Source: Aminobacter anthyllidis (GTDB lineage Bacteria > Pseudomonadota > Alphaproteobacteria > Rhizobiales > Rhizobiaceae). Taken from it: DNA of 64,000 nt. Under the pieces are notes generated by a model. That model had not been told where the DNA came from. It searched no databases and was given only the letters and a program-made list of their open reading frames with translations. Every line of letters begins with the position of its first letter. Within the stretch, counting starts at the first letter, position 1. Both the position numbers and the translations under genes were made by a program. Where the stretch lies: the NCBI RefSeq assembly GCF_018555685.1, contig NZ_JAFLWW010000005.1, positions 186,001-250,000 of the forward strand. Reading direction: 5' to 3'. Positions 16,696 to 50,228 of this stretch are shown one piece after another.

Positions 16696-16720
16696 AACGT
16701 CGTGACCCGGTCATGGTTCC
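16696..16720 (-). promoter_or_regulatory. EcfG-type promoter for the PRC-barrel gene
   Basis: Minus strand GGAAC (16720-16716), 16-bp spacer, CGTT (16699-16696). It exactly matches the general stress sigma factor consensus. It lies about 90 bp upstream of the start codon. Confidence 0.85.
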
Positions 16721-16815
16721 GAAATTGTGGCAGGCTTATTTTCGGTGAGTGCCGGGAACCGAAGCGTCACTCGCATTTCGGCAAGCATTTCAAATTCCTC
16801 ATTCCCCAAGGGCAC

Positions 16816-16986
16816 TTAGCCCGGGGCGGCGGTGGTCTGGCTGGCGTTCTGGTCGATCATCTCGCCATAGAATTCCGCAGCACCCCATGCCGCCATTGCC
16901 AGCATCAGCGCTGCCAATAGCACCACCAAGACGTGGCGGCCGCGCGTTCCCTGGCGCGCATTTCGGGCTGGAATGATCCTGGTCAT
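16816..16986 (-). CDS. Small membrane protein (56 aa), predicted stress regulon member
   Basis: The frame begins MTRIIPARNARQGTRGRH, basic, followed by one hydrophobic helix (about 19-38, VLVVLLAALMLAMAAWGAAE) and a short polar tail. GGGAGAGCAAG precedes the ATG at good spacing. A longer upstream frame to 17055 has no such site. An EcfG-type promoter lies 31 bp upstream of the start. Family unknown; probably a single-pass inner-membrane protein. Confidence 0.75.
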   Translation of the reverse strand: MTRIIPARNARQGTRGRHVLVVLLAALMLAMAAWGAAEFYGEMIDQNASQTTAAPG

Positions 16987-17016
16987 CTTGCTCTCCCATC
17001 TGGTTCCAGAAAGGCT

Positions 17017-17041
17017 AACGACAGCATCACGGCATGGTTCC
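17017..17041 (-). promoter_or_regulatory. EcfG-type promoter for the 56-aa membrane protein
   Basis: Minus strand GGAAC (17041-17037), 16-bp spacer, CGTT (17020-17017), 31 bp before the start codon. Confidence 0.85.
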
Positions 17042-17111
17042 CAAGTTTCGACCAAGGCTTTTCAAGCGTGCCGCGCCCGTCTAGTTTCCCCAGGCCAAGA
17101 GGGGTGGCCGA

Positions 17112-18548
17112 GTGCAGGACGACAGAACCAACCCAGTCACCATCGCCGAGGACAGCGAAAACGCTGCGCACAAGCGTGGGCCGCGTGACGCCGATTTCGA
17201 CCGGCTGGCACGCCTTGCTGCAAAGCTGATGGCGGCACCCGCGGCCCTGCTGACCCTCACCAACACGGCAGGGCAGCAAGTCGTCCATGCACATGTCGGA
17301 ACGTCTCCCGCGCAGGCCGCGGAGGCGCTCGGCCTGGCAGAACGGTTCCTGGCAAACGACCCGGCCGAAGCGCGTGATGGCACATTTCTCCTGTATGCCG
17401 GCGCGCCGATCGTCGCATCCGGCCGCGGCGTCGGTGCCTTGCTGGTTCTCGACGGCGGGGAGCGCCCCGCCCCCGATCCGGACATGCTCGAGCAGTTGCA
17501 GGACGTCGCGGCACTTGCCGGAAGCCTGATTGTCCTGCGCGACCGCTCGCAGGCCGGCGCGCGCGCCGAGGCGGCGCTTGTGCATGCCGAAACCCGTCGT
17601 GCGATCGCGCTTGAAGCCGCTGCCCTTGCCAGCTGGGTCTGGGACCCGCGTACCGGCGTCGTCGAATGCGACGCGCTCTTGCCCGAACTCTTCAACATGC
17701 CGCCGGCAACGAGAATGCGGGCGCGCGATATTGTCGTCGCCATCGATCGCCGCGACATCGGCAGGACGCGGAAGATCTTCCAGGAAGCGCTTGAAGGCAG
17801 CGACGACTATTCCGGCGAATACCGCATCCGCGGCTTTGATCCGCCGCGCTGGCTCGCCGCCCGCGGCCGCGTCGTCGAGCGTGATGCCGATGGCCGTCCG
17901 ACGCTGGTCTTCGGCGTCAACTACGACATTTCAGAGCGCCGCAGTGGCGAGGAGCGCCAGCGCCTCCTGCTGCGCGAGATCAACCACCGGGTCAAGAACA
18001 CGCTCGCCACCGTTCAGGCGCTTGCCACCCAGACGGTGCGACATGCACGCGAGCCGCGCGAGTTCCTTGACGCCTTCAGCCAGCGCCTGCGCGCACTCGG
18101 CGTCGCTCACGGGCTTTTGTCGGAATATGAATGGCGCGGCATCGGCATCCGCGATCTCGCGCGGCTGGAGCTCTCGCCGTTCGACGACGCGGACACCCCG
18201 CGCATTGCGATATCAGGCCCCGACGCGCTGCTGACCCCGGACCAGACACTGGGCCTGGCGCTGATCCTGCACGAACTGGCCAGCAATGCGCTCAAATATG
18301 GCGCCCTTTCAGTGCCGGCCGGTCGGGTTTCCGTGTCGTGGACCGTGAGCGGCGAAAAACAGCTGGAGCTGGAATGGGTCGAGAGCGGCGGGCCCAAGGT
18401 CACCCCGCCCGCCCATCATGGTTTCGGCTCGATCCTTATCCGCCGCAGCCTCGCCAAGGTCATCTCCAGCGAGGTGACACACGAGTTTCCGGCAGACGGC
18501 GTGCGCGCCCACATCTCGATGCCGCTTGGCGAACTGGCTGAGGCCTGA
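17112..18548 (+). CDS. HWE-family sensor histidine kinase (GAF-like + PAS)
   Basis: A 478-residue soluble kinase with a GTG start supported by AAGAGGGG. A GAF-like domain (about 25-145) and a PAS domain (about 160-278) precede an HWE/HisKA_2 dimerisation domain with LLREINHRVKNTLAT (His292), then an ATPase domain with HELASNALKYGALS. HWE and HisKA_2 kinases are the class that phosphorylates PhyR-type regulators. This gene sits 4-6 kb from phyR and beside EcfG-driven genes, so it is a candidate input kinase. No EcfG box lies in front of it on its own strand. It has no receiver of its own. Confidence 0.93.
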   Translation: MQDDRTNPVTIAEDSENAAHKRGPRDADFDRLARLAAKLMAAPAALLTLTNTAGQQVVHAHVGTSPAQAAEALGLAERFLANDPAEARDGTFLLYAGAPIVASGRGVGALLVLDGGERPAPDPDMLEQLQDVAALAGSLIVLRDRSQAGARAEAALVHAETRRAIALEAAALASWVWDPRTGVVECDALLPELFNMPPATRMRARDIVVAIDRRDIGRTRKIFQEALEGSDDYSGEYRIRGFDPPRWLAARGRVVERDADGRPTLVFGVNYDISERRSGEERQRLLLREINHRVKNTLATVQALATQTVRHAREPREFLDAFSQRLRALGVAHGLLSEYEWRGIGIRDLARLELSPFDDADTPRIAISGPDALLTPDQTLGLALILHELASNALKYGALSVPAGRVSVSWTVSGEKQLELEWVESGGPKVTPPAHHGFGSILIRRSLAKVISSEVTHEFPADGVRAHISMPLGELAEA

Positions 18549-18559
18549 AGGCCGCAGAC

Positions 18560-19012
18560 CTACTCGCCCGCCACGCCGTCGGTGTCGTCGGGCTTGTGAT
18601 TTTCGCGATAGATCGCATAGGCGGCCAACGCCACCACCGGCCCCAGCAGTGCGCCGATACCGCCCTTGCTGCGCAGCAGTGTCGGCAGCACGGCCATCGC
18701 CGCCGTCGTGCCCAATGCTGCGATGTCGGCGCGCCGCCGCCGCTGGTCCTCGCGAGCCCGCGACCCTGCCATCAGCTTGTGCACAAGCAGGATCAATCCC
18801 GCCAGCACCAGGAAACCGAGGCCAAAGCCGATTGCCGCTTCAAGATGGCCATATTTCTCGGCCGCCCAGATGAAGGCGGCACCGACGAGAAAGCCGGTGC
18901 CACACAGGCCAGCGATCGCAGCGGCCAGATAAGCCGCTGCCGCGCGGCGCGTCCGCCTCAGCGCCAGTGTCGTCTCGCCGGTGGCGAAACCCGCAATCAA
19001 TGATGCCAGCAT
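18560..19012 (-). CDS. Phage-holin-superfamily-like membrane protein (Actinobacterial-holin/DUF1469-like)
   Basis: About 150 residues from MLASLIAGFATGE, with GGGGGA upstream. Two adjacent hydrophobic helices (about 27-52 and 60-80) are followed by a basic RAREDQRRRR segment and a third weaker hydrophobic segment. The layout resembles the bacterial 'phage holin family' of housekeeping membrane proteins, which often sit beside DUF883 proteins. It lies 19 bp downstream of the DUF883-type gene and shares its EcfG promoter. It is not evidence of a prophage. Confidence 0.75.
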   Translation of the reverse strand: MLASLIAGFATGETTLALRRTRRAAAAYLAAAIAGLCGTGFLVGAAFIWAAEKYGHLEAAIGFGLGFLVLAGLILLVHKLMAGSRAREDQRRRRADIAALGTTAAMAVLPTLLRSKGGIGALLGPVVALAAYAIYRENHKPDDTDGVAGE

Positions 19013-19031
19013 GTGTCCCCCGACCTGGTTA

Positions 19032-19358
19032 CTAGCGCCGCGCCAGAAGCGCGATGAGGAACCCAACGCCGGCGGCGATGGCAAGCGACGTCACCGGCTT
19101 TTCGCGCACGGTCGTCATGAACTGCTCTTCGATGTCGCGGGCGTTGGCGCGCAAGGCTTCGACCGCCGCGTCGCCCTGTGCCTTCAATTGCTCGGCACCT
19201 TGCGACGCCGCGCGCCGCGCAGCACCGTAGCCATGCTCGCCGGTCGCGGCCAACTGCTTGGCGAGCGCTTCGATGTCGGCCTTCAACTGCTTGATGTCGG
19301 CCTCGAGGTCCGGCGTCGTCTTGGTGCCGTTGCCGGTCTTGCCTGTCGCTGTCGCCAT
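19032..19358 (-). CDS. DUF883 (ElaB/YqjD)-type membrane-anchored protein
   Basis: A 108-residue protein. A long helical, charged region (about 15-85, coiled-coil-like, DLEADIKQLKADIEALAKQLA) is followed by a single C-terminal transmembrane helix (SLAIAAGVGFLIALLARR). This is the architecture of ElaB/YqjD, stress-induced proteins that anchor ribosomes to the inner membrane in E. coli. The ATG has AAGGAGC upstream. An EcfG promoter lies 31 bp upstream, and the gene forms an operon with the holin-like gene. Confidence 0.9.
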   Translation of the reverse strand: MATATGKTGNGTKTTPDLEADIKQLKADIEALAKQLAATGEHGYGAARRAASQGAEQLKAQGDAAVEALRANARDIEEQFMTTVREKPVTSLAIAAGVGFLIALLARR

Positions 19359-19389
19359 GTCATTGCTCCTTGCATTTCGATGGGGCCGA

Positions 19390-19414
19390 AACGCCTGATA
19401 TCCCTGTCGGTTCC
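19390..19414 (-). promoter_or_regulatory. EcfG-type promoter for the DUF883/holin-like operon
   Basis: Minus strand GGAAC (19414-19410), 16-bp spacer, CGTT (19393-19390), 31 bp before the start codon. Its -35 box is 9 bp from the -35 box of a second, opposite EcfG promoter. Confidence 0.87.
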
Positions 19415-19423
19415 GTCGTCGCA

Positions 19424-19449
19424 GGAACCATCGCCGACCGCCGGACGTT
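19424..19449 (+). promoter_or_regulatory. EcfG-type promoter for the AI-2E family gene
   Basis: GGAAC (19424-19428), 17-bp spacer, CGTT (19446-19449), 32 bp before the ATG. It is head-to-head with the promoter at 19390-19414. Confidence 0.87.
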
Positions 19450-19481
19450 TTGCCAGTCTCATTCAGCTGGAAAAATCATCG

Positions 19482-20594
19482 ATGCCGTCCCGCACCATCA
19501 AGAAGGCGCCGACCGTGCGCCTGCCGCCAAAATCCAATTTCGAGATCCTGCTTACGCGCGGCGCCCAGGTATCGATCATCTTCATCGGCATCGTCGTCAC
19601 CGTCTTTGCCCTTCACGCCGGCGAGTTCATCCTCACCCCCATCGGCCTCGGCGTCGTCATCGGCCTGATGCTCGGCCCGCTCGCCTCGCGGCTTGAACGC
19701 TTCAAGGTTCCGCCGGCACTGTCGGCGGCGATCGTCTTTCTGCTGTTCATCGTCTCCGTTGGCATCTTTGCGCTTCTGATCAGCTCTCCGCTCAGCTTCT
19801 GGCTTCAGCGCCTGCCGCAGATCTGGGCGCAGCTCGCCACCCAGCTGTCCGACCTCAAGGGGCCACTCGAAACCTTCAAGAGCATGCGCGATCAGCTGCG
19901 CCAGGTCACCGGCGGCGAAGGTGTGTCGGTCTCTGTCGACGAAGGCATGGGCGTAGAGACGATGGCGACGCTGGCCCCGGCCGTCATTGCCCAGGTGCTG
20001 TTGTTCTTCGCCAGCCTCTACTTCTTTGTCGCGACGCGCTACCAGACACGTACCGCCATCCTCAGGGTGTGCTTCAACCGCCGCCTGCGCTGGCGTGTCG
20101 CCCACATCTTCCGCGACGTCGAAAGGCTCGTCTCGCAATATCTGCTGTCGATCACCGTCATCAACTTCGCCGAAGGCCTGACCGTCGGCATCGGCCTTTA
20201 CCTGCTCGGCGTGCCCTCCGCGCCGTTATGGGGCGCGCTGGCGATCGTAACCAATTTCGTGCCCTTCGTCGGCCCGCTGGTCATGGTCGCGATCCTGTTT
20301 GCCGTCGGCCTGACCGAGTTCGACACTTTGGGCGCGAGCCTGCTACCGGTCGCACTCTATCTCGGCGTCAACACCATCGAGGGCCAGTTCGTCACGCCCC
20401 TGGTCATCGGCAGGACGATGACGCTCAACCCCTTCGTCGTGCTGCTCGCTCTGGCGTTCTGGATCTGGCTGTGGGGTGCCATCGGCGGCTTCATCGCCAT
20501 CCCCGCTTTGCTCGTAGGCTACGCCATCATCCGCAACGTGCTGCCCGGCGTGAACTGGGGTGTCGACGAACTCGACCGGCAATACGAGCGCTAG
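19482..20594 (+). CDS. AI-2E family transporter (PerM/TqsA-type membrane protein)
   Basis: A 370-residue polytopic membrane protein with about seven or eight hydrophobic helices. Paired N-terminal helices (about 25-70) are followed by a soluble segment (about 105-160), then the conserved block TIEGQFVTPLVIGRTMTLNPFVVLLALAFWIWLWG typical of the family. Family members include autoinducer-2 exporters and Na+/H+ antiporters; the substrate here is unknown. An EcfG promoter suggests a stress role. The ATG was chosen because it follows that promoter and matches family length; the long upstream extension is shadow. Confidence 0.9.
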   Translation: MPSRTIKKAPTVRLPPKSNFEILLTRGAQVSIIFIGIVVTVFALHAGEFILTPIGLGVVIGLMLGPLASRLERFKVPPALSAAIVFLLFIVSVGIFALLISSPLSFWLQRLPQIWAQLATQLSDLKGPLETFKSMRDQLRQVTGGEGVSVSVDEGMGVETMATLAPAVIAQVLLFFASLYFFVATRYQTRTAILRVCFNRRLRWRVAHIFRDVERLVSQYLLSITVINFAEGLTVGIGLYLLGVPSAPLWGALAIVTNFVPFVGPLVMVAILFAVGLTEFDTLGASLLPVALYLGVNTIEGQFVTPLVIGRTMTLNPFVVLLALAFWIWLWGAIGGFIAIPALLVGYAIIRNVLPGVNWGVDELDRQYER

Positions 20595-20637
20595 GGGCAT
20601 GGCTGCAAATGTCGGGGAGGTCATGCATCGGTGCGTT

Positions 20638-21399
20638 TCACAGCAGTGGTCGCACACCCTCGTCGAGGCCGCTCCAGTTCGCTAGCGCCATGAGCCCCTC
20701 AATGTCGAGTACCTTGCAGCCGCCATCGCGCCACTGCACCAGCTTTCGGTCCATCAACTTGCGGATCGTCTTGTTGGTGTGGACGACCGAAAGCCCGAGC
20801 GTGTCGGCCAGGTGCTGCTGGGTGATCGGGATTTCGACATCGCCCTTGCCGTCCATGCCGACCTTGTGGGCGCGGCTGGCAATGAAGGCGAGAAGATAGG
20901 CCGCGCGTTCCAGTGCCGAGCGGCGCCCGACGCTCAACAGGTTTTCATCGAGCATGCGCTCTTCGCGCGCCGCGATCCAGGTGATGTCGTAGGCAAGGCC
21001 AGGATAGTCGCGATAAAGGTCCATCAGCCGGTCGCGCTCGAACATGCACAACAGCATCGGCGACAGCGCTTCCACCGAATGCTGCATCTCGCCCATCAGG
21101 GTGCCCTGCAGGCCGATCATGTCGCCGGGCAGCACGTAGTTCAGTATCTGGCGGCGGCCATCCTCGAGCAGCTTGTAGCGAAAGCCCCATCCTGCCAGCA
21201 CAGTAAACAGATGCGCGCTGTTGCTGCCTTCGGAAAGCAGCGTCGCACCCTTGTCGACCGCAAGTTCGCCGCGCTTGAAGCTGCTGACGAAAGCCAGTTC
21301 CGCCTTGTCGAATGGCCTGAAGGCCGGCAATGGCCTGAGCGGACACTTCTCGCACGGAACCTGCCGCGCCATGTCGGTTGGAATGCTCTGCGCCGTCAT
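20638..21399 (-). CDS. Crp/Fnr-family transcriptional regulator
   Basis: A 253-residue regulator. A cyclic-nucleotide-binding-like domain (about 25-145) and a helix-turn-helix Crp domain follow (ITQQHLADTLGLSVVHTNKTIRKL recognition region, about 188-215). A CEKCPLR motif near residue 16 gives two N-terminal Cys but not the full Fnr iron-sulfur set, so oxygen sensing by Fe-S is doubtful. The ATG at 21399 has a strong GGAGGG; an earlier frame start is less likely. An EcfG promoter 26 bp upstream puts this regulator downstream of the general stress response. Confidence 0.92.
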   Translation of the reverse strand: MTAQSIPTDMARQVPCEKCPLRPLPAFRPFDKAELAFVSSFKRGELAVDKGATLLSEGSNSAHLFTVLAGWGFRYKLLEDGRRQILNYVLPGDMIGLQGTLMGEMQHSVEALSPMLLCMFERDRLMDLYRDYPGLAYDITWIAAREERMLDENLLSVGRRSALERAAYLLAFIASRAHKVGMDGKGDVEIPITQQHLADTLGLSVVHTNKTIRKLMDRKLVQWRDGGCKVLDIEGLMALANWSGLDEGVRPLL

Positions 21400-21424
21400 G
21401 AAACCCTCCAGGAATGTGACCGGC

Positions 21425-21450
21425 AACGCCGTGAGACCACCGAAGGTTCC
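21425..21450 (-). promoter_or_regulatory. EcfG-type promoter for the Crp/Fnr regulator
   Basis: Minus strand GGAAC (21450-21446), 17-bp spacer, CGTT (21428-21425), 26 bp before the start codon. Confidence 0.84.
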
Positions 21451-21558
21451 TCATCCGCGCGCCAATGCCTGCTACTCGACCGCGGCATGTCTTTTTTAAA
21501 TGACAGCAAGCGCAACTGCCGCCATGTTCTGCTTCGATTTCATGGAGTGCCCCGCGAC

Positions 21559-21942
21559 GTGCCAACCCCGCTTTCAGGACTACGTATCCTCGTGCTCGAA
21601 GACGAGGCACTGATTGCACTCGATGTCGAGCAGCTCTGCCGGGACCACGGTGCCGGAGAAGTCGCCATCGCCGGCAATCTTCGCGAAGCACGCGAAGTCG
21701 CAGTGCCCTATGATGCCGCCATCATCGACGTCATGCTCGGCGGCGAGCCGACTTTCGATTTCGCACGCTCCCTCGAGGCTGCCGGCGTGCCGTTTGTCTT
21801 TGCTTCCGGCTACGACCAGCTTGACGAGATCTTTGCCGGCTTCCCGGGCGTCGCCCTGGTGAGCAAGCCCTATGCCGGCGCCGACCTCATCGAGGCCGTT
21901 GCCGAGAGCATCCGCAAGGCTGCGCGTTCAGCCGACAGTTGA
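21559..21942 (+). CDS. Single-domain response regulator
   Basis: About 127 residues, receiver only. It has the acidic pair in VLEDEALIALD, phosphoacceptor Asp57 (AAIIDVMLGGEPTFD) and Lys in LVSKPYAGADL. It is of the class that partners HWE/HisKA_2 kinases in rhizobia. GTG at 21559 with GGAG 11 nt upstream gives normal family length; an ATG at 21487 would add 24 residues without a ribosome-binding site. Its last 15 bp overlap the end of the convergent ecfG gene. It may act as a phosphate sink or relay in the PhyR pathway. Confidence 0.85.
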   Translation: MPTPLSGLRILVLEDEALIALDVEQLCRDHGAGEVAIAGNLREAREVAVPYDAAIIDVMLGGEPTFDFARSLEAAGVPFVFASGYDQLDEIFAGFPGVALVSKPYAGADLIEAVAESIRKAARSADS

Positions 21943-22476
21943 TCCCATCACCTGAGCGGCAATGGCGTCGGGGCCGTAATCGGCCTCGCCGGAGATATCG
22001 AGTATCTCCTGCAGCCGGTTGCGGGCGCGGCTGACGCGGCTCTTGATGGTGCCGACAGCACAGCCGCAGATCTCCGCCGCTTCCTCATAGGAAAAACCCG
22101 AAGCGCCGATCAGGATGATCGCCTCGCGCTGGTCTTCCGGCAATTGCTCCAGCGCCTTGCGGAAGTCGTCAAGATCGAGTCGCCCGTGCTGGCTCGGATG
22201 CACGGCCAGGCGGGCTGTCAAAAGACCCTCGCTGTCCTGCACCTCGCGTCCGCGCTTGCGCATCTGCGAATAGAACTCGTTGCGCAGGATGGTGAACAGC
22301 CAGGCCTTGAGGTTGGTGCCCGGCTGAAAGCTGGACTGCTTGTCCCACGCCTTGACAAGCGTTTCCTGGACCAGGTCGTCGGCCCTGTCGGCGTTCTGCG
22401 ACAGCGACATGGCAAAAGCGCGCAGGCCAGGGATGGTCGCGAGCAAGTCGCCCTTGAAACCGAGAGATGCTGCCAT
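21928..22476 (-). CDS. ecfG: General stress response ECF sigma factor EcfG
   Basis: A 182-residue ECF sigma factor: region 2 (about 15-85, with DDLVQETLVKAWDKQSSF and LKAWLFTILRNEF) and region 4 (about 110-165, LPEDQREAIILIGASGFSYEEAAEICGCAVGTIKSRVSRAR). Sequence and linkage to nepR and phyR identify the EcfG (sigma-15 group) factor that drives the general stress regulon. It is encoded 6 bp downstream of nepR on the same strand, so sigma and anti-sigma are co-transcribed from an autoregulated promoter. It should be held by NepR until PhyR is phosphorylated. Confidence 0.96.
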   Translation of the reverse strand: MAASLGFKGDLLATIPGLRAFAMSLSQNADRADDLVQETLVKAWDKQSSFQPGTNLKAWLFTILRNEFYSQMRKRGREVQDSEGLLTARLAVHPSQHGRLDLDDFRKALEQLPEDQREAIILIGASGFSYEEAAEICGCAVGTIKSRVSRARNRLQEILDISGEADYGPDAIAAQVMGSTVG

Positions 22477-22482
22477 GCCCGG

Positions 22483-22680
22483 TCAGTCCTTCTGCTGCTC
22501 AGGTTCGGCTTGTTCCAGCTGGCTGAGCAGCTGGGCAAATCGATCCGGCACCTCGTCGGACACGAGCTCATCGTAATATTGTTTGAGTTTGCGGCCTATT
22601 TCGGAATTTGCCCCAAGAGGTTCCCCGTCGCGTCGACGGTTCGGCCCGGCGCTGGCTACGCCACTGGTCTGCTTGGTCAT
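22483..22680 (-). CDS. nepR: Anti-sigma factor NepR
   Basis: A 65-residue protein whose C-terminal part (about 22-58, LGANSEIGRKLKQYYDELV then VPDRFAQLLSQLE) is the two-helix NepR core that wraps EcfG and, alternatively, the sigma-like domain of phospho-PhyR. The ATG MTKQTSG gives normal family length; longer frames would start at or above the predicted transcription start. It lies immediately upstream of ecfG and divergent from phyR, the standard arrangement. Confidence 0.94.
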   Translation of the reverse strand: MTKQTSGVASAGPNRRRDGEPLGANSEIGRKLKQYYDELVSDEVPDRFAQLLSQLEQAEPEQQKD

Positions 22681-22766
22681 ATGCTTGTCTTTGCCCTTTT
22701 GCCCCGTCGGACGTCCCGCCCCAAACGGCGCGCAACAACCTTGTTGGTTTATCGAATTTTGCATCC

Positions 22767-22791
22767 AACTCCTCAAATGCGGATAGGTTCC
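22767..22791 (-). promoter_or_regulatory. EcfG-type promoter for nepR-ecfG (autoregulatory)
   Basis: Minus strand GGAAC (22791-22787), 16-bp spacer, AGTT (22770-22767); one mismatch to CGTT. Its -35 box lies 8 bp from the -35 box of the phyR promoter, so the two face away from each other. Confidence 0.78.
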
Positions 22792-22799
22792 ACAAACGA

Positions 22800-22824
22800 G
22801 GAACTTTTGCACAAACCAAGCGTT
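22800..22824 (+). promoter_or_regulatory. EcfG-type promoter for phyR
   Basis: GGAAC (22800-22804), 16-bp spacer, CGTT (22821-22824), about 52 bp before the phyR start. An exact consensus match, implying positive feedback. Confidence 0.9.
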
Positions 22825-22876
22825 GTGTGTCGCTTCACAACAGTTTCAGCAACGTCGAATGAGGGAGACGTCAATC

Positions 22877-23671
22877 ATGACACTATCCACGAGAATCGCC
22901 CCGCACCTGCCCTATCTCCGCCGCTTCTCACGCGCGGTGGCGGGGTCCCAGGAGAGCGGCGATGCGCTGGTGGCCGCGATGCTCGAAGCACTGATCGACG
23001 ATATCGATGTTTTCCCATCCGCTTCCAACGACCGCATTGCGCTTTACAAGATTTTTGCCCGCCTTTTCACCTCAGTCTCCATCCGCGTGCCGCAGGATTC
23101 TCCAACGCTCGGCTGGGAAAAGCGAGCCGCTGCCAATCTTTCCGCTCTTTCGCCGCGCCCGCGCCAGGCATTCCTTCTGGTTGCCGTCGAAGGCTTCAAT
23201 GAAGCCGAAGCCGCCGAGGTCCTCGACGCCGACCAGGATGAGTTCACAAGGCTCCTGCAGGAAGCGAGCGGCGAAATCTCGCGTCAGGTGGCAACCGACA
23301 TCCTGATCATCGAGGACGAACCGCTCATCGCCATGGACATCGAAGAGATGGTGGAGAGCCTGGGCCATCGTGTCGTCGGCACGGCACGCACCCGTGCCGA
23401 GGCCATCGCGCTGTTCAAGAAGACCCGGCCCAAGATGATCCTGGCCGACATCCAGCTTGCCGATGGCAGTTCCGGAATCGACGCCGTCAACGAGATGTTG
23501 TCTTCGGCACCGCTGCCCGTGATCTTCATCACTGCCTTTCCCGAACGCCTGTTGACAGGCGAGCGCCCGGAGCCGGCGTTCCTCGTCACCAAGCCGTTCA
23601 ACCCCGATATGGTCAAGGCGCTGATTAGTCAGGCTTTGTTCTTTGACAGACAGGCAAAGGCTGCTGCATAG
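22877..23671 (+). CDS. phyR: Anti-anti-sigma response regulator PhyR
   Basis: A 264-residue protein with a sigma-factor-like N-terminal domain (about 1-130) that mimics EcfG and a C-terminal receiver (about 140-258). Phosphoacceptor Asp191 lies in ILADIQLADGSSG and Lys239 in LVTKPF. Phosphorylation exposes the sigma-like domain, which takes NepR away from EcfG. The ATG (MTLSTRIAPH) is preceded by GGGAG; the longer open frame from 22823 begins at the -10 region and cannot be translated from this promoter. A terminator follows. Confidence 0.97.
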   Translation: MTLSTRIAPHLPYLRRFSRAVAGSQESGDALVAAMLEALIDDIDVFPSASNDRIALYKIFARLFTSVSIRVPQDSPTLGWEKRAAANLSALSPRPRQAFLLVAVEGFNEAEAAEVLDADQDEFTRLLQEASGEISRQVATDILIIEDEPLIAMDIEEMVESLGHRVVGTARTRAEAIALFKKTRPKMILADIQLADGSSGIDAVNEMLSSAPLPVIFITAFPERLLTGERPEPAFLVTKPFNPDMVKALISQALFFDRQAKAAA

Positions 23672-23682
23672 GGTTTTTTAGC

Positions 23683-23720
23683 ACCGCCCCAGGGAACCAA
23701 CCTTGGGGCGGTACGTTTTT
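23683..23720 (+). terminator. phyR terminator, overlapping an EcfG promoter
   Basis: ACCGCCCC/GGGGCGGT stem with a 14-nt interior containing a further CAGGGAACC/..CCTTGG partial pairing, followed by five T residues at 23716-23720. The stem and loop include the -35 and spacer of the next gene's promoter. Confidence 0.8.
23693..23717 (+). promoter_or_regulatory. EcfG-type promoter for the DUF1328 gene
   Basis: GGAAC (23693-23697), 16-bp spacer, CGTT (23714-23717), 29 bp before the ATG. It is embedded in the phyR terminator hairpin. Confidence 0.85.
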
Positions 23721-23746
23721 CATTCATCATTTGAAGGAGATAGATC

Positions 23747-23911
23747 ATGCTGTACTGGGCGCTAGTATTCCTCGTCGTCGCGATTATTGCCGGCGCCCTC
23801 GGCTTCGGCGGCATCGCTGGAACATCTGCCGGCATCGCGCAAATCTTGTTCTTCATCTTCTTGGCGTTCCTGGTCATTTCACTGATCGCGGGCCTGTTCA
23901 GGCGCGCTTGA
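23747..23911 (+). CDS. DUF1328 (YtjA-type) small membrane protein
   Basis: A 54-residue protein, [19 protein letters not shown]..., almost entirely two hydrophobic helices joined by a Gly/Ala-rich turn ([13 protein letters not shown]) and ending LFRRA. Length and sequence match the DUF1328 family. GAAGGAGA precedes the ATG. It is driven by an EcfG promoter and lies 170 bp upstream of an HWE-type kinase gene with no intervening terminator. Confidence 0.9.
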
Positions 23912-24081
23912 TGACACCGGGAATATGAAGAACCAACCCGAGACTGGAAGCCGGCCCCCTCAGTCGGAATCCAGCGCCGCCGGGTAGCGCCTCACTATTG
24001 AAGCGTTGCCCGGCGGTCCCATCTGGTTCTTCCGAAATCATTCGGCCGAACCGCAATGAGCGGAGCAAAGGCTCTCGTCGC

Positions 24082-25089
24082 ATGGCCAATTCCCCCACAG
24101 CGGGACAGAGTAAACGGGTCGACGTCGCCCTGCTCCATGCCTCCCGCAATGCGGGCATTGCCGTGCTCTACCAGGATCACACGCTCCACACGGTCTGGTC
24201 GCACAATCTGCAGCCGCCTTGGGCAGGCGCCCTGGAAGAGCAGACCGGCGAAGGCGGCTTTCTCCCCGAACAGCAGGCCGATCGCCTCGTGGCCGCCAAG
24301 AAGAACGTCCTTGCAACAGGCAATTCGGACGGGCTCGAGGTCAGCATCGCCGACAATTCCGCCGGCATGCGCTGGTTCGACGTCTGCATCGACGCCGACC
24401 GATCCCCCGGCGGCCAGGTCCAGGGTGTCGTCGTCACCGTCATCGAAACCACCGAGCAGAAGCGCCGCGAGCAGACCCTGAAGGCGCTGCTGCGCGAGGT
24501 CAGCCACCGTTCCAAGAACCTGCTTGCCATCATCCAGAGCATCGCCAGCCAGACTGGCCACTATTCCGGTTCCATCGACATCTTCCTCGAGCGCTTCCGC
24601 GGGAGGCTCCAGTCCCTCGCCTCGTCGCAGGATCTGGTCACCTCGTCCAACTGGCGCGGCGCTGGCTTCCGCGAACTGGTTGTCGGCCAGGTCAAGCGCT
24701 ACAGCAACGATACCGAGCATGCCGTGCGCATCCTGGGCGAAGACCCGTATCTCAATCCCAATGCCGCCCTGCATATCGGACTTGCCGTGCACGAACTGGC
24801 CGTCAATTCGGTGAGTTATGGCGCGCTTTCGCGCGTGGACGGCCATGTCGAGGTGACTGCCAGCAAGATAAAGGGTCCCGACGGCGAAGAGCAGATTGCC
24901 CTGCACTGGTCGGAGATAATCGATCCCGTTGCGGATGCGTCGATGCGCAAGAAGCGGTTTGGCAGTGTCGCGCTCGAACGTGTCGTCCCGGCCGCGCTGA
25001 ACGGCAACGCCGAACTCGAAATCGGCGTCGACAAGCTGCAGTACCGCCTCGTCATGCCCCAGGCGAACTTCGAGCTGGAGCAGGATTAG
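24082..25089 (+). CDS. HWE/HisKA_2-type sensor histidine kinase with N-terminal PAS-like domain
   Basis: A 335-residue soluble kinase. A PAS-like domain (about 15-125; FDVCIDADRSPGGQVQGVVVTVIETTEQ) leads to a HisKA_2-type dimerisation segment LLREVSHRSKNLLAII (His142). The ATPase domain has HELAVNSVSYGALS as N-box and a weak G-box (RFGSVALERVV). The ATG MANSPTAG is chosen over a 28-residue extension. It sits downstream of phyR and DUF1328 in the same direction, where Rhizobiales often encode the PhyR kinase, so it is the best positional candidate for phosphorylating PhyR. Confidence 0.9.
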   Translation: MANSPTAGQSKRVDVALLHASRNAGIAVLYQDHTLHTVWSHNLQPPWAGALEEQTGEGGFLPEQQADRLVAAKKNVLATGNSDGLEVSIADNSAGMRWFDVCIDADRSPGGQVQGVVVTVIETTEQKRREQTLKALLREVSHRSKNLLAIIQSIASQTGHYSGSIDIFLERFRGRLQSLASSQDLVTSSNWRGAGFRELVVGQVKRYSNDTEHAVRILGEDPYLNPNAALHIGLAVHELAVNSVSYGALSRVDGHVEVTASKIKGPDGEEQIALHWSEIIDPVADASMRKKRFGSVALERVVPAALNGNAELEIGVDKLQYRLVMPQANFELEQD

Positions 25090-25129
25090 CTCGATTCGAA
25101 ATTCAAACGGTTCAGCTCCGTCGCGCCAT

Positions 25130-25155
25130 GGAACTTTTAGCCGCCACCCGCCGTT
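25130..25155 (+). promoter_or_regulatory. EcfG-type promoter for the 106-aa protein
   Basis: GGAAC (25130-25134), 17-bp spacer, CGTT (25152-25155), 21 bp before the ATG at 25177. Confidence 0.84.
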
Positions 25156-25176: not shown

Positions 25177-25497
25177 ATGGAACACATCGCAGCATTTCTG
25201 TTGGTCGTTTCCTGCTCCCAGGATTTGTCGGGCTGCCGCGAGATTCCGGCGCCTGCGCCCCTGTTCGAGGCCTATGACGCATGTCAGGCCGAACTGCCGA
25301 AGGTTCTCGGCGCGTTCAGGTCAAGCAGCAACCGCACTTTTGCCAAGTGCCTGGAGGTCGATCCAGCCCTTGAAGACGATTACGACCAGCTGACCTGGAA
25401 TGTCCTGCCCAATGGCACCATCGAGGCGTCTCTTACCGTTTCCAGCGTCGTTGTGGCGTCGGGTACGGCCACCGGCAAGCCGGCTTATCTCCATTGA
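25177..25497 (+). CDS. Conserved small protein of unknown function, predicted stress regulon member
   Basis: A 106-residue protein starting MEHIAAFLLVVSCSQDLSGC. Four Cys (about residues 13, 20, 36 and 58) and a Pro-rich stretch (EIPAPAPLFEAYDACQAELP) stand out. The N-terminus is only weakly hydrophobic, so export is uncertain. GAGG lies upstream of the ATG. An EcfG promoter directly precedes it. I do not recognise a domain. The four Cys could bind a metal or form disulfides. Confidence 0.75.
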   Translation: MEHIAAFLLVVSCSQDLSGCREIPAPAPLFEAYDACQAELPKVLGAFRSSSNRTFAKCLEVDPALEDDYDQLTWNVLPNGTIEASLTVSSVVVASGTATGKPAYLH

Positions 25498-49439: not shown

Positions 49440-49465
49440 GGAACGTTTGGCCATAGCTTTCCGTT
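49440..49465 (+). promoter_or_regulatory. EcfG-type promoter for the GFA-family gene
   Basis: GGAAC (49440-49444), 17-bp spacer, CGTT (49462-49465), 21 bp before the ATG. It starts 6 bp after the stop codon of the second DUF982 gene. Confidence 0.82.
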
Positions 49466-49486: not shown

Positions 49487-49978
49487 ATGGAAAATCGTAG
49501 CGGCGAAACCATTCGATTTGGCAGCTGCTATTGCCGTGCCGTTGCCTTCCGGGTCACCGGTCAACCTCTCAGGGTGGGAATTTGCCACTGCGCCGATTGC
49601 CGCAAGACCAGCGGTTCGGCGTTTTCCGCCTATGCGGTCTGGCCGATCTCGGCCCTCGAACAGAGCGGCCAGGTCAGCACATATGGCAACAGGAGCTTCT
49701 GCGTCACCTGCGGCAGCCGCGTGACCTTTGTCCGCGGCGACGAGGCCGAAGTCATGCTTGGCAGCCTCGACGTCGTGCCGTCAGATCTCACGCCTGAATA
49801 TGAATTGTGGACCGGCCGTCGCGAAAACTGGCTGCACCCGTTGCCGGAGGCACAGCAGTTCGAGCACGATCGCGACACAGCGGCCGAGCCTGAACCGCCC
49901 GAAACCGAGCAGCCGGAGCGGATCCGAACCCTCGAGACGGAGGTCCCGCGTCCCACCGAACTCGTTCGGCCGGCTTAA
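49487..49978 (+). CDS. GFA-family protein (glutathione-dependent formaldehyde-activating enzyme-like)
   Basis: A 163-residue zinc-binding CENP-V/GFA fold. Cys pairs are CYC (14, 16), CHCADC (33, 35, 38) and CVTC (72, 75), followed by the conserved SRVTF and GSLD segments. The family includes Gfa, which helps formaldehyde react with glutathione, but most members are uncharacterised. The C-terminal 45 residues are an acidic, Pro-rich extension (AEPEPPETEQPE) beyond the usual domain. The ATG has GGAAAGGAG upstream. An EcfG promoter links it to the stress regulon. Confidence 0.9.
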   Translation: MENRSGETIRFGSCYCRAVAFRVTGQPLRVGICHCADCRKTSGSAFSAYAVWPISALEQSGQVSTYGNRSFCVTCGSRVTFVRGDEAEVMLGSLDVVPSDLTPEYELWTGRRENWLHPLPEAQQFEHDRDTAAEPEPPETEQPERIRTLETEVPRPTELVRPA

Positions 49979-50203: not shown

Positions 50204-50228
50204 AACGCCCGTCGGCACGCAAGGTTCC
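50204..50228 (-). promoter_or_regulatory. EcfG-type promoter for the 60-aa membrane protein
   Basis: Minus strand GGAAC (50228-50224), 16-bp spacer, CGTT (50207-50204), 25 bp before the start codon. Confidence 0.84.

Follow-up and report, generated by a model that had tools for sequence, protein, structure and literature searches.

Nine promoter sites of the EcfG type lie within 8.5 kb around phyR, nepR and ecfG in the stretch of Aminobacter anthyllidis DNA analysed here (64,000 nucleotides (nt), hereafter the window, on contig C26 of genome G000). The region is very probably an autoregulated EcfG/PhyR/NepR general-stress control locus that has part of its own regulon clustered within it. An earlier note on this DNA had placed nine such sites at positions 16696–25155, and the whole observation is confirmed: counting GGAAC-N16/17-CGTT as an exact site, the window holds 10, eight of them in this interval (hereafter the island), with the AGTT variant before nepR as the ninth island site. 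As the note had claimed, each of the nine points at the next gene and most stand 20–35 bp before a start codon (six, at 21–32 bp; the other three at 52, 86 and 91 bp). Dinucleotide-shuffled versions of the window contained 0.96 exact sites on average and at most 5. The genome-wide scan that the note had called for gave 0.95 exact sites per kb in the island vs 0.017 per kb in the rest of the genome, making the island 55-fold denser; 0.145 sites would be expected there, and eight or more have a probability of 4e-12 (~3e-9 after correction for windows).

The clustering recurs among relatives. For comparison we took the best 80 of at least 564 phyR-bearing stretches, mostly from Mesorhizobium and Aminobacter, and used the reversed pattern as a control. 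Between -7 and +3 kb relative to phyR these loci contain 700 exact sites in ~775 kb (0.90 per kb), and the remaining flank nine in ~831 kb (0.011 per kb), with 19 and eight matches, respectively, for the control; each of the 80 holds at least five. Gene content and strands are largely retained, flanking genes included, and a mobile island is unsupported because those flanking genes are kept. An exact site lies upstream of the DUF883 gene in 77/77 relatives, of phyR and the DUF1328 gene in 79/80 each, of nepR (here as the CGTT form) in 75/79, and of the gene for a 106-amino-acid (106-aa) protein in 63/64. It is further found upstream of the 56-aa gene in 61 of the 70 loci having a relative of it, of the Crp/Fnr gene in 43/55 and of the AI-2E transporter gene in all seven relatives having it. 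The HWE2 kinase gene after phyR has its own exact site in 57/78 relatives; in the present genome none lies upstream of it, the best fit having two mismatches. Counts are low for the PRC-barrel gene (17 of the 72 relatives having it) and a glycine-zipper gene (3/71), and no exact site was found upstream of the HWE1 kinase gene (0/46), the gene for a single-domain response regulator (0/77), a CHASE-HWE kinase gene (0/70), the second genes of two operons (0/77 for the membrane-protein gene after DUF883; 0/78 for ecfG) or any of six flanking genes (0 of 35–72 relatives each). Assigned by nearest downstream open reading frame, 2/703 sites fall to ecfG and one to that membrane-protein gene. In Mesorhizobium islands, 62 loci carry a site before a gene of ~312–320 aa, of which two scanned products contain DAGK_cat and YegS_C domains (diacylglycerol-kinase type).

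Promoter alignments that were not conditioned on the motif, in which the -35 and -10 blocks were scored against the spacer, show the same signal at single sites. For eight of the nine promoters the blocks are conserved at 0.88–1.00 and the spacers at 0.58–0.77, as exemplified by nepR (blocks 1.00 and 0.99, spacer 0.58), DUF883 (0.97 and 1.00, spacer 0.60), the 106-aa gene (both 0.99, spacer 0.59), the 56-aa gene (0.94 and 0.91, spacer 0.66) and Crp/Fnr (0.88 and 0.90, spacer 0.61); the AI-2E footprint is based on seven sequences. The PRC promoter leaves a weak footprint (0.55 and 0.64, spacer 0.53). In the window, the DUF1328 promoter sits inside a terminator-like hairpin directly after phyR (23683–23712; 12 pairs, ~-25 kcal/mol). 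A stem of at least six pairs occurs at this site in 22 of 76 distinct relatives (and in ~9% of shuffled flanks), and one of at least eight pairs in two. Stems as strong as that of the window are thus rare in relatives, and we rejected a promoter nested in a terminator as a general feature.

To look further afield, we hand-picked loci out of genomes bearing NepR (105/121 in the family, 76/120 in the order), taking a single one for each of 60 genera of the family, among them the own genus, and for each of 20 further families of the order; at least three of them (L185, L193, L198) look like genomes also present among the 80 relatives. In the family loci, 248 exact sites fall into the bins from -6 to +2 kb relative to nepR and 19 into the outer bins, with six and eight in the intermediate bins at -7 and +3 kb (reversed controls: 15, 8, 0 and 3, in the same order). 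The order loci have 25 exact sites in the first kb after nepR and 0.0–0.5 per kb in other bins, at a total of 94 vs 10 for the control. Two or more exact sites occur in 51/60 family and 17/20 order loci (68/80 together); loci L152–L159, presumably Rhizobium-like, have 0 to 4 each. The trend is similar to that in the 80 relatives and weaker. Since counts in distant loci are lower yet mostly reach two or more, site clustering is widespread and strongest in the Mesorhizobium/Aminobacter group.

How would such a locus work? In this family it is established that an HWE kinase phosphorylates PhyR, which then binds NepR and thereby frees EcfG. The parts are present at the locus: PhyR has a sigma-like domain fused to a receiver (PF22029, PF22233 and PF00072, all over cut-off), NepR is the single match in the whole genome, the gene for a sigma factor of the extracytoplasmic function (ECF) class adjoins nepR divergently from phyR, and HWE_HK exceeds its cut-off in three proteins. 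EcfG, NepR and PhyR are on the expected strands in 78/80, 79/80 and 80/80 relative loci. Here, a stress-sensing HWE kinase would phosphorylate PhyR, PhyR would bind NepR, and the EcfG so released would start transcription at the nine GGAAC-N16/17-NGTT promoters in 8.5 kb. Its targets would be its own nepR-ecfG operon and phyR, both preceded by EcfG-type promoters (exact for phyR, variant for nepR), together with seven effector or regulator units, namely those of the PRC-barrel protein, the 56-aa protein, DUF883 plus a membrane protein, the AI-2E transporter, Crp/Fnr, DUF1328 and the 106-aa protein. From the sequence we infer that EcfG is the sigma factor used at the island sites and that the island products protect against stress.

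A number of observations weigh against this reading. The 80 relatives are close kin, picked by PhyR similarity and not independent; the regions 3' of the sites are also fairly conserved (0.56–0.77); and the PRC-barrel site is poorly conserved. No exact site at all is found in 6/80 distant loci (five family, one order), and 12/80 have fewer than two. At least 12 other candidate promoters stand elsewhere in the genome. Across its 6,714,122 bp (6.71 Mb) the motif is no commoner than the reversed control (123 exact sites vs 184), so it shows no genome-wide enrichment and many of its matches must be chance. The latter point is what favours taking the island sites, too, as chance or compositional matches to a short motif, to which we assign a negligible probability: the density (P ~4e-12) and the block-over-spacer footprints argue against it, and site clustering and per-gene site counts in the 80 relatives contradict it.

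Which sigma factor reads these promoters? A related ECF could use some of the sites, because RpoE6 and RpoE2 targets overlap in Sinorhizobium meliloti, where 27 genes belonging to the RpoE2 set are also induced by RpoE6 (PMC6180224), and because paralogues are present in this genome, the ECF sigmas found being at most 38% identical to EcfG. That another ECF sigma, alone or alongside EcfG, reads the island promoters is nevertheless improbable in our view, given that the sites cluster at phyR-nepR-ecfG in 80/80 relatives (at least five each) and 68/80 distant loci (at least two each) and include the promoters of these regulators themselves. A more serious contender accepts the promoters as real and takes their grouping near the regulators as functionless, neighbours once recruited having simply stayed in a stable chromosomal backbone. 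Flanking genes are indeed kept as well (a dioxygenase gene in 71/80, a sulfatase gene in 63/80 and an ABC transporter gene in 74/80 loci), and there are many EcfG-type sites elsewhere in the genome; yet the motif ends sharply at the island edges, and island slots differ in their genes by lineage and still carry it (AI-2E in 7 loci, the diacylglycerol-kinase type in 62). On this evidence we hold the chances of a functionless grouping to be about even.

How much of the regulon does the island hold? Genome sites were sorted with a simple codon-usage gene caller, which missed the 56-aa gene and chose later starts for Crp and the gene at 49487; 25/123 exact sites fall outside the sorting. The 88 places outside the window gave 86 distinct ones after two repeated site sequences had been dropped: 35 inside genes, 31 intergenic without a called gene, and 20 promoter-like, of which 12 lie no more than 60 bp from a called start. 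The 31 may hide true promoters, because the caller probably misses genes of unusual codon usage. Eleven of the 12 genes were scanned and eight exceeded a Pfam cut-off (CsbD twice, PRC twice, DUF3008, BA14K, HWE kinase and DUF1236), which resembles the set commonly met in EcfG regulons. The remaining two exact sites of the window are at 49440–49465 (+) and 50204–50228 (-), and the former, 21 bp before the ATG of a GFA-family gene (49487; PF04828), is the one start-proximal site in the rest of the window. Among sites no more than 60 bp from a start, the island has 7 of 20 with hand-checked starts and 5 of 17 with one caller throughout. The island thus holds only part of the regulon. With this correction, the proposal of EcfG promoters clustered with their regulators is supported by density, orientation, block-over-spacer conservation and the retention of the cluster in relatives. 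More groups of exact sites, at 56–57% GC and near DUF892 and CsbD genes, were seen elsewhere in the same genome (L151 at the end of contig C25 and L121 on contig C11); perhaps these represent plasmid-borne stress genes.

The core promoters of nepR and phyR stand back to back at a near-fixed distance. Counting divergent pairs within 0–150 bp that have exact motifs on both sides, we found their -35 boxes 6–11 bp apart in 73/75 pairs from the relatives, 17/19 from the family and 3/8 from other families; of the remaining divergent pairs in these loci, 3/73, 3/29 and 1/5 lie in this range (one of the order pairs counted as other, at 9 bp in L227, may be a core pair). The window gaps are 8 bp for nepR|phyR and 9 bp for DUF883|AI-2E; for other divergent EcfG pairs of the islands, spacings extend from below 6 up to 137 bp. 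No nepR|phyR pair was recognised in 1/80 relatives, 27/60 family and 12/20 order loci; a relaxed pattern additionally gives spacings of -27 (four loci), -61, -83, -175 and 13 in the family. In L155, L182, L184 and L194 it finds one nepR-phyR site readable on both strands, which could be a bidirectional promoter. The bases between the two -35 boxes vary among loci. A search of 397 order genomes for any divergent pair at 0–30 bp, in which only one of the two spacers was variable and which was not limited to nepR|phyR, had a match in 106, many sharing descent, and the reversed control was seen in one; among the 87 places listed, 46 are at 5–11 bp and a second group of 26 at 23–30 bp. Helical phasing of divergent promoters (spacings near 8, 19, 29 and 39 bp) was rejected: a 10.5-bp period fits the 87 pairs solely through the 5–11 bp peak (p ~0.36 without the 4–13 bp class), and no phase signal was found in other divergent pairs.

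Two EcfG-RNA polymerases should not fit at these promoters at once, so that nepR and phyR would compete. We tentatively propose, as a possibility rather on the unlikely side, that the promoters of nepR-ecfG and phyR constitute a single constrained unit, placed back to back, in which competition would determine how much sigma plus anti-sigma factor is made relative to anti-anti-sigma factor under stress. Shared ancestry or plain compactness may instead underlie the near-fixed spacing. The spacing seems to be new and makes it possible to test directly whether the balance of the switch depends on promoter geometry.

The 106-aa protein merits separate mention. Its median pairwise dN/dS (ratio of nonsynonymous to synonymous substitution rates) is 0.178 across 64 sequences (window plus 63 loci), and all 31 aligned members share C13, C20, C36 and C58. 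It matched nothing in Pfam, NCBIfam, PHROGs or PDB sequences, and its structure model (predicted local distance difference test score, pLDDT, 74.8) has no PDB fold match at E ≤ 0.001. In the family loci L152, L154, L155, L159 and L168, a GGAAC site, the ribosome site AAAGGAGAG and the 106-aa gene come after the kinase gene; the -10 element is CGTT in two of these loci, a different NGTT in two more and CATT in the fifth. At the same place, 3' of the same kinase gene, starts ReC64 of Rhizobium etli, described in the accessible part of the report as an EcfG1-dependent RNA of 88 nt (PMC3892343). It rises in salt (PMC3892343, PMC2881028, PMC4167512), and an unexplained larger transcript was observed as well (PMC2881028). 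ReC64 may be the 5' part of the mRNA of the 106-aa gene, which we judge to be an evenly balanced possibility; the 88-nt size, which fitted an array prediction, and the SigA and RpoH promoters predicted for ReC64 (PMC4167512) speak against it. A protein gene at the ReC64 position seems to be new and, if the link is true, could mean that an RNA reported as non-coding belongs to a protein gene.

Table. Genes and predicted EcfG-type promoters of the island; distances are to the start codon.
Feature	Position	Strand	Remark
PRC-barrel protein, 313 aa	15663..16604	-	PF05239, 83 bits
PRC-barrel promoter	16696..16720	-	exact motif; 91 bp
56-aa protein, one hydrophobic stretch	16816..16986	-	no Pfam or NCBIfam family
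56-aa protein promoter	17017..17041	-	exact motif; 30 bp (start at 16986)
HWE histidine kinase (HWE1), PAS and GAF-like part	17112..18548	+	PF07536, 95 bits; GAF below cut-off; no EcfG-type site upstream
150-aa membrane protein, second gene after DUF883	18560..19012	-	present in 77/80 relative loci
DUF883 protein (DUF883_C), 108 aa	19032..19358	-	PF19029, 29.5 bits, over cut-off
Promoter of DUF883 and downstream membrane gene	19390..19414	-	exact motif; 31 bp
AI-2E transporter promoter	19424..19449	+	exact motif; 32 bp; 9 bp from DUF883 site, back to back
AI-2E family transporter	19482..20594	+	PF01594 (AI-2E_transport), 150 bits
Crp/Fnr-type regulator	20638..21399	-	PF00027 and PF13545
Crp/Fnr promoter	21425..21450	-	exact motif; 25 bp
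Single-domain response regulator	21559..21942	+	PF00072 (26.1 bits) and NCBIfam response-regulator models, all below cut-off; no exact site upstream
ecfG	21928..22476	-	Sigma70_r2 and r4_2 domains
nepR	22483..22680	-	PF18557, 60.5 bits (cut-off 25.7)
nepR-ecfG promoter	22767..22791	-	variant GGAAC-N16-AGTT; 86 bp
phyR promoter	22800..22824	+	exact motif; 52 bp; 8 bp from nepR -35 box, back to back
phyR	22877..23671	+	PF22029, PF22233, PF00072 over cut-off
DUF1328 promoter	23693..23717	+	exact motif; 29 bp; within hairpin 23683-23712
DUF1328 protein, 54 aa	23747..23911	+	PF07043, 60.7 bits
HWE histidine kinase (HWE2) after phyR, tcrY position	24082..25089	+	PF07536, 78.7 bits
106-aa protein promoter	25130..25155	+	exact motif; 21 bp
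106-aa conserved protein, four invariant Cys	25177..25497	+	matches no known family

From 15.6 to 27.6 kb the gene order is PRC-barrel, 56-aa membrane protein, HWE kinase, DUF883, 150-aa membrane protein, AI-2E transporter, Crp/Fnr, single-domain response regulator, ecfG, nepR, phyR, DUF1328, HWE kinase, 106-aa unknown, glycine-zipper protein and CHASE-HWE kinase. Pfam upholds the names of the PRC, HWE kinase, DUF883_C, AI-2E_transport, Crp, ECF sigma, NepR, PhyR and DUF1328 products; for the 150-aa protein, which the earlier note had termed holin-like, no family over cut-off was found in Pfam or NCBIfam scans. Among the matches listed, the closest named relative of PhyR is that of Aminobacter carboxidus (98%). 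The single-domain response regulator reads PFVFASGY, one residue off the PFXFATG[G/Y] of FATGUY regulators such as SdrG and MrrA (motif according to PMC5964349). Its gene and ecfG are convergent, and their 3' ends share 15 bp (21928–21942).

The partner-switch core is well known, and many EcfG-controlled genes are without a function. In this block of 9 kb the majority of adjacent transcription units are predicted to begin at a common type of stress promoter, and the block is kept in relatives, so several nameless small genes can be linked to the stress response; the compact, conserved island thus yields a short list of stress-tied small proteins (the 106-aa and 56-aa families, the DUF883 pair and DUF1328). 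That small unknown proteins gain a testable stress role, as had been suggested, holds most strongly for these same DUF883, DUF1328, 106-aa and 56-aa proteins, with position and promoter found in many species. In the literature, as far as it could be searched, there are already accounts of the core locus and its autoregulation, and of several regulons. No conserved promoter island or near-fixed spacing was found in titles, abstracts and passages, a search that left many subscription papers outside, and the evidence for novelty is weak for that reason.

Compared with known systems, the divergent nepR-ecfG/phyR arrangement with EcfG promoters seen here is the most frequent one in Alphaproteobacteria (PMC4814048), the accessible text of that paper stating nothing on how far apart the two promoters lie. 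In Sphingomonas melonis Fr1, an EcfG motif resembling that of the island is enriched within 100 bp of starts and a PRC-barrel gene is among the strongest EcfG targets, and the available part of this regulon account describes no promoter island at the phyR locus (PMC6599016). Partial accounts of S. meliloti list rsiA1 (SMc01505) and rsiB1 (SMc01504) as RpoE2-dependent and report that SMc01509 and SMc01508, few tags away, rise with RpoE2 (PMC3616915, PMC6180224); by tag order, the latter two would be the DUF883 pair. The closest parallel is R. etli (rpoE4/ecfG1, tcrX/phyR, tcrY), which, in the passages at hand, shares the core order, with nepR-ecfG divergent from phyR and the kinase gene after phyR (PMC3892343, PMC2881028, PMC4167512), and whose EcfG promoters, GGAAC-N16..., agree with the island motif (PMC3892343). 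There, too, an EcfG promoter lies 3' of the kinase gene, its start mapped by 5' RACE (rapid amplification of cDNA ends) and a reporter silent in the ecfG1 mutant; the downstream transcript was called an 88-nt non-coding RNA in R. etli, whereas here and in five family loci a conserved protein gene follows the promoter. The island is an extension of a known system, not a new one.

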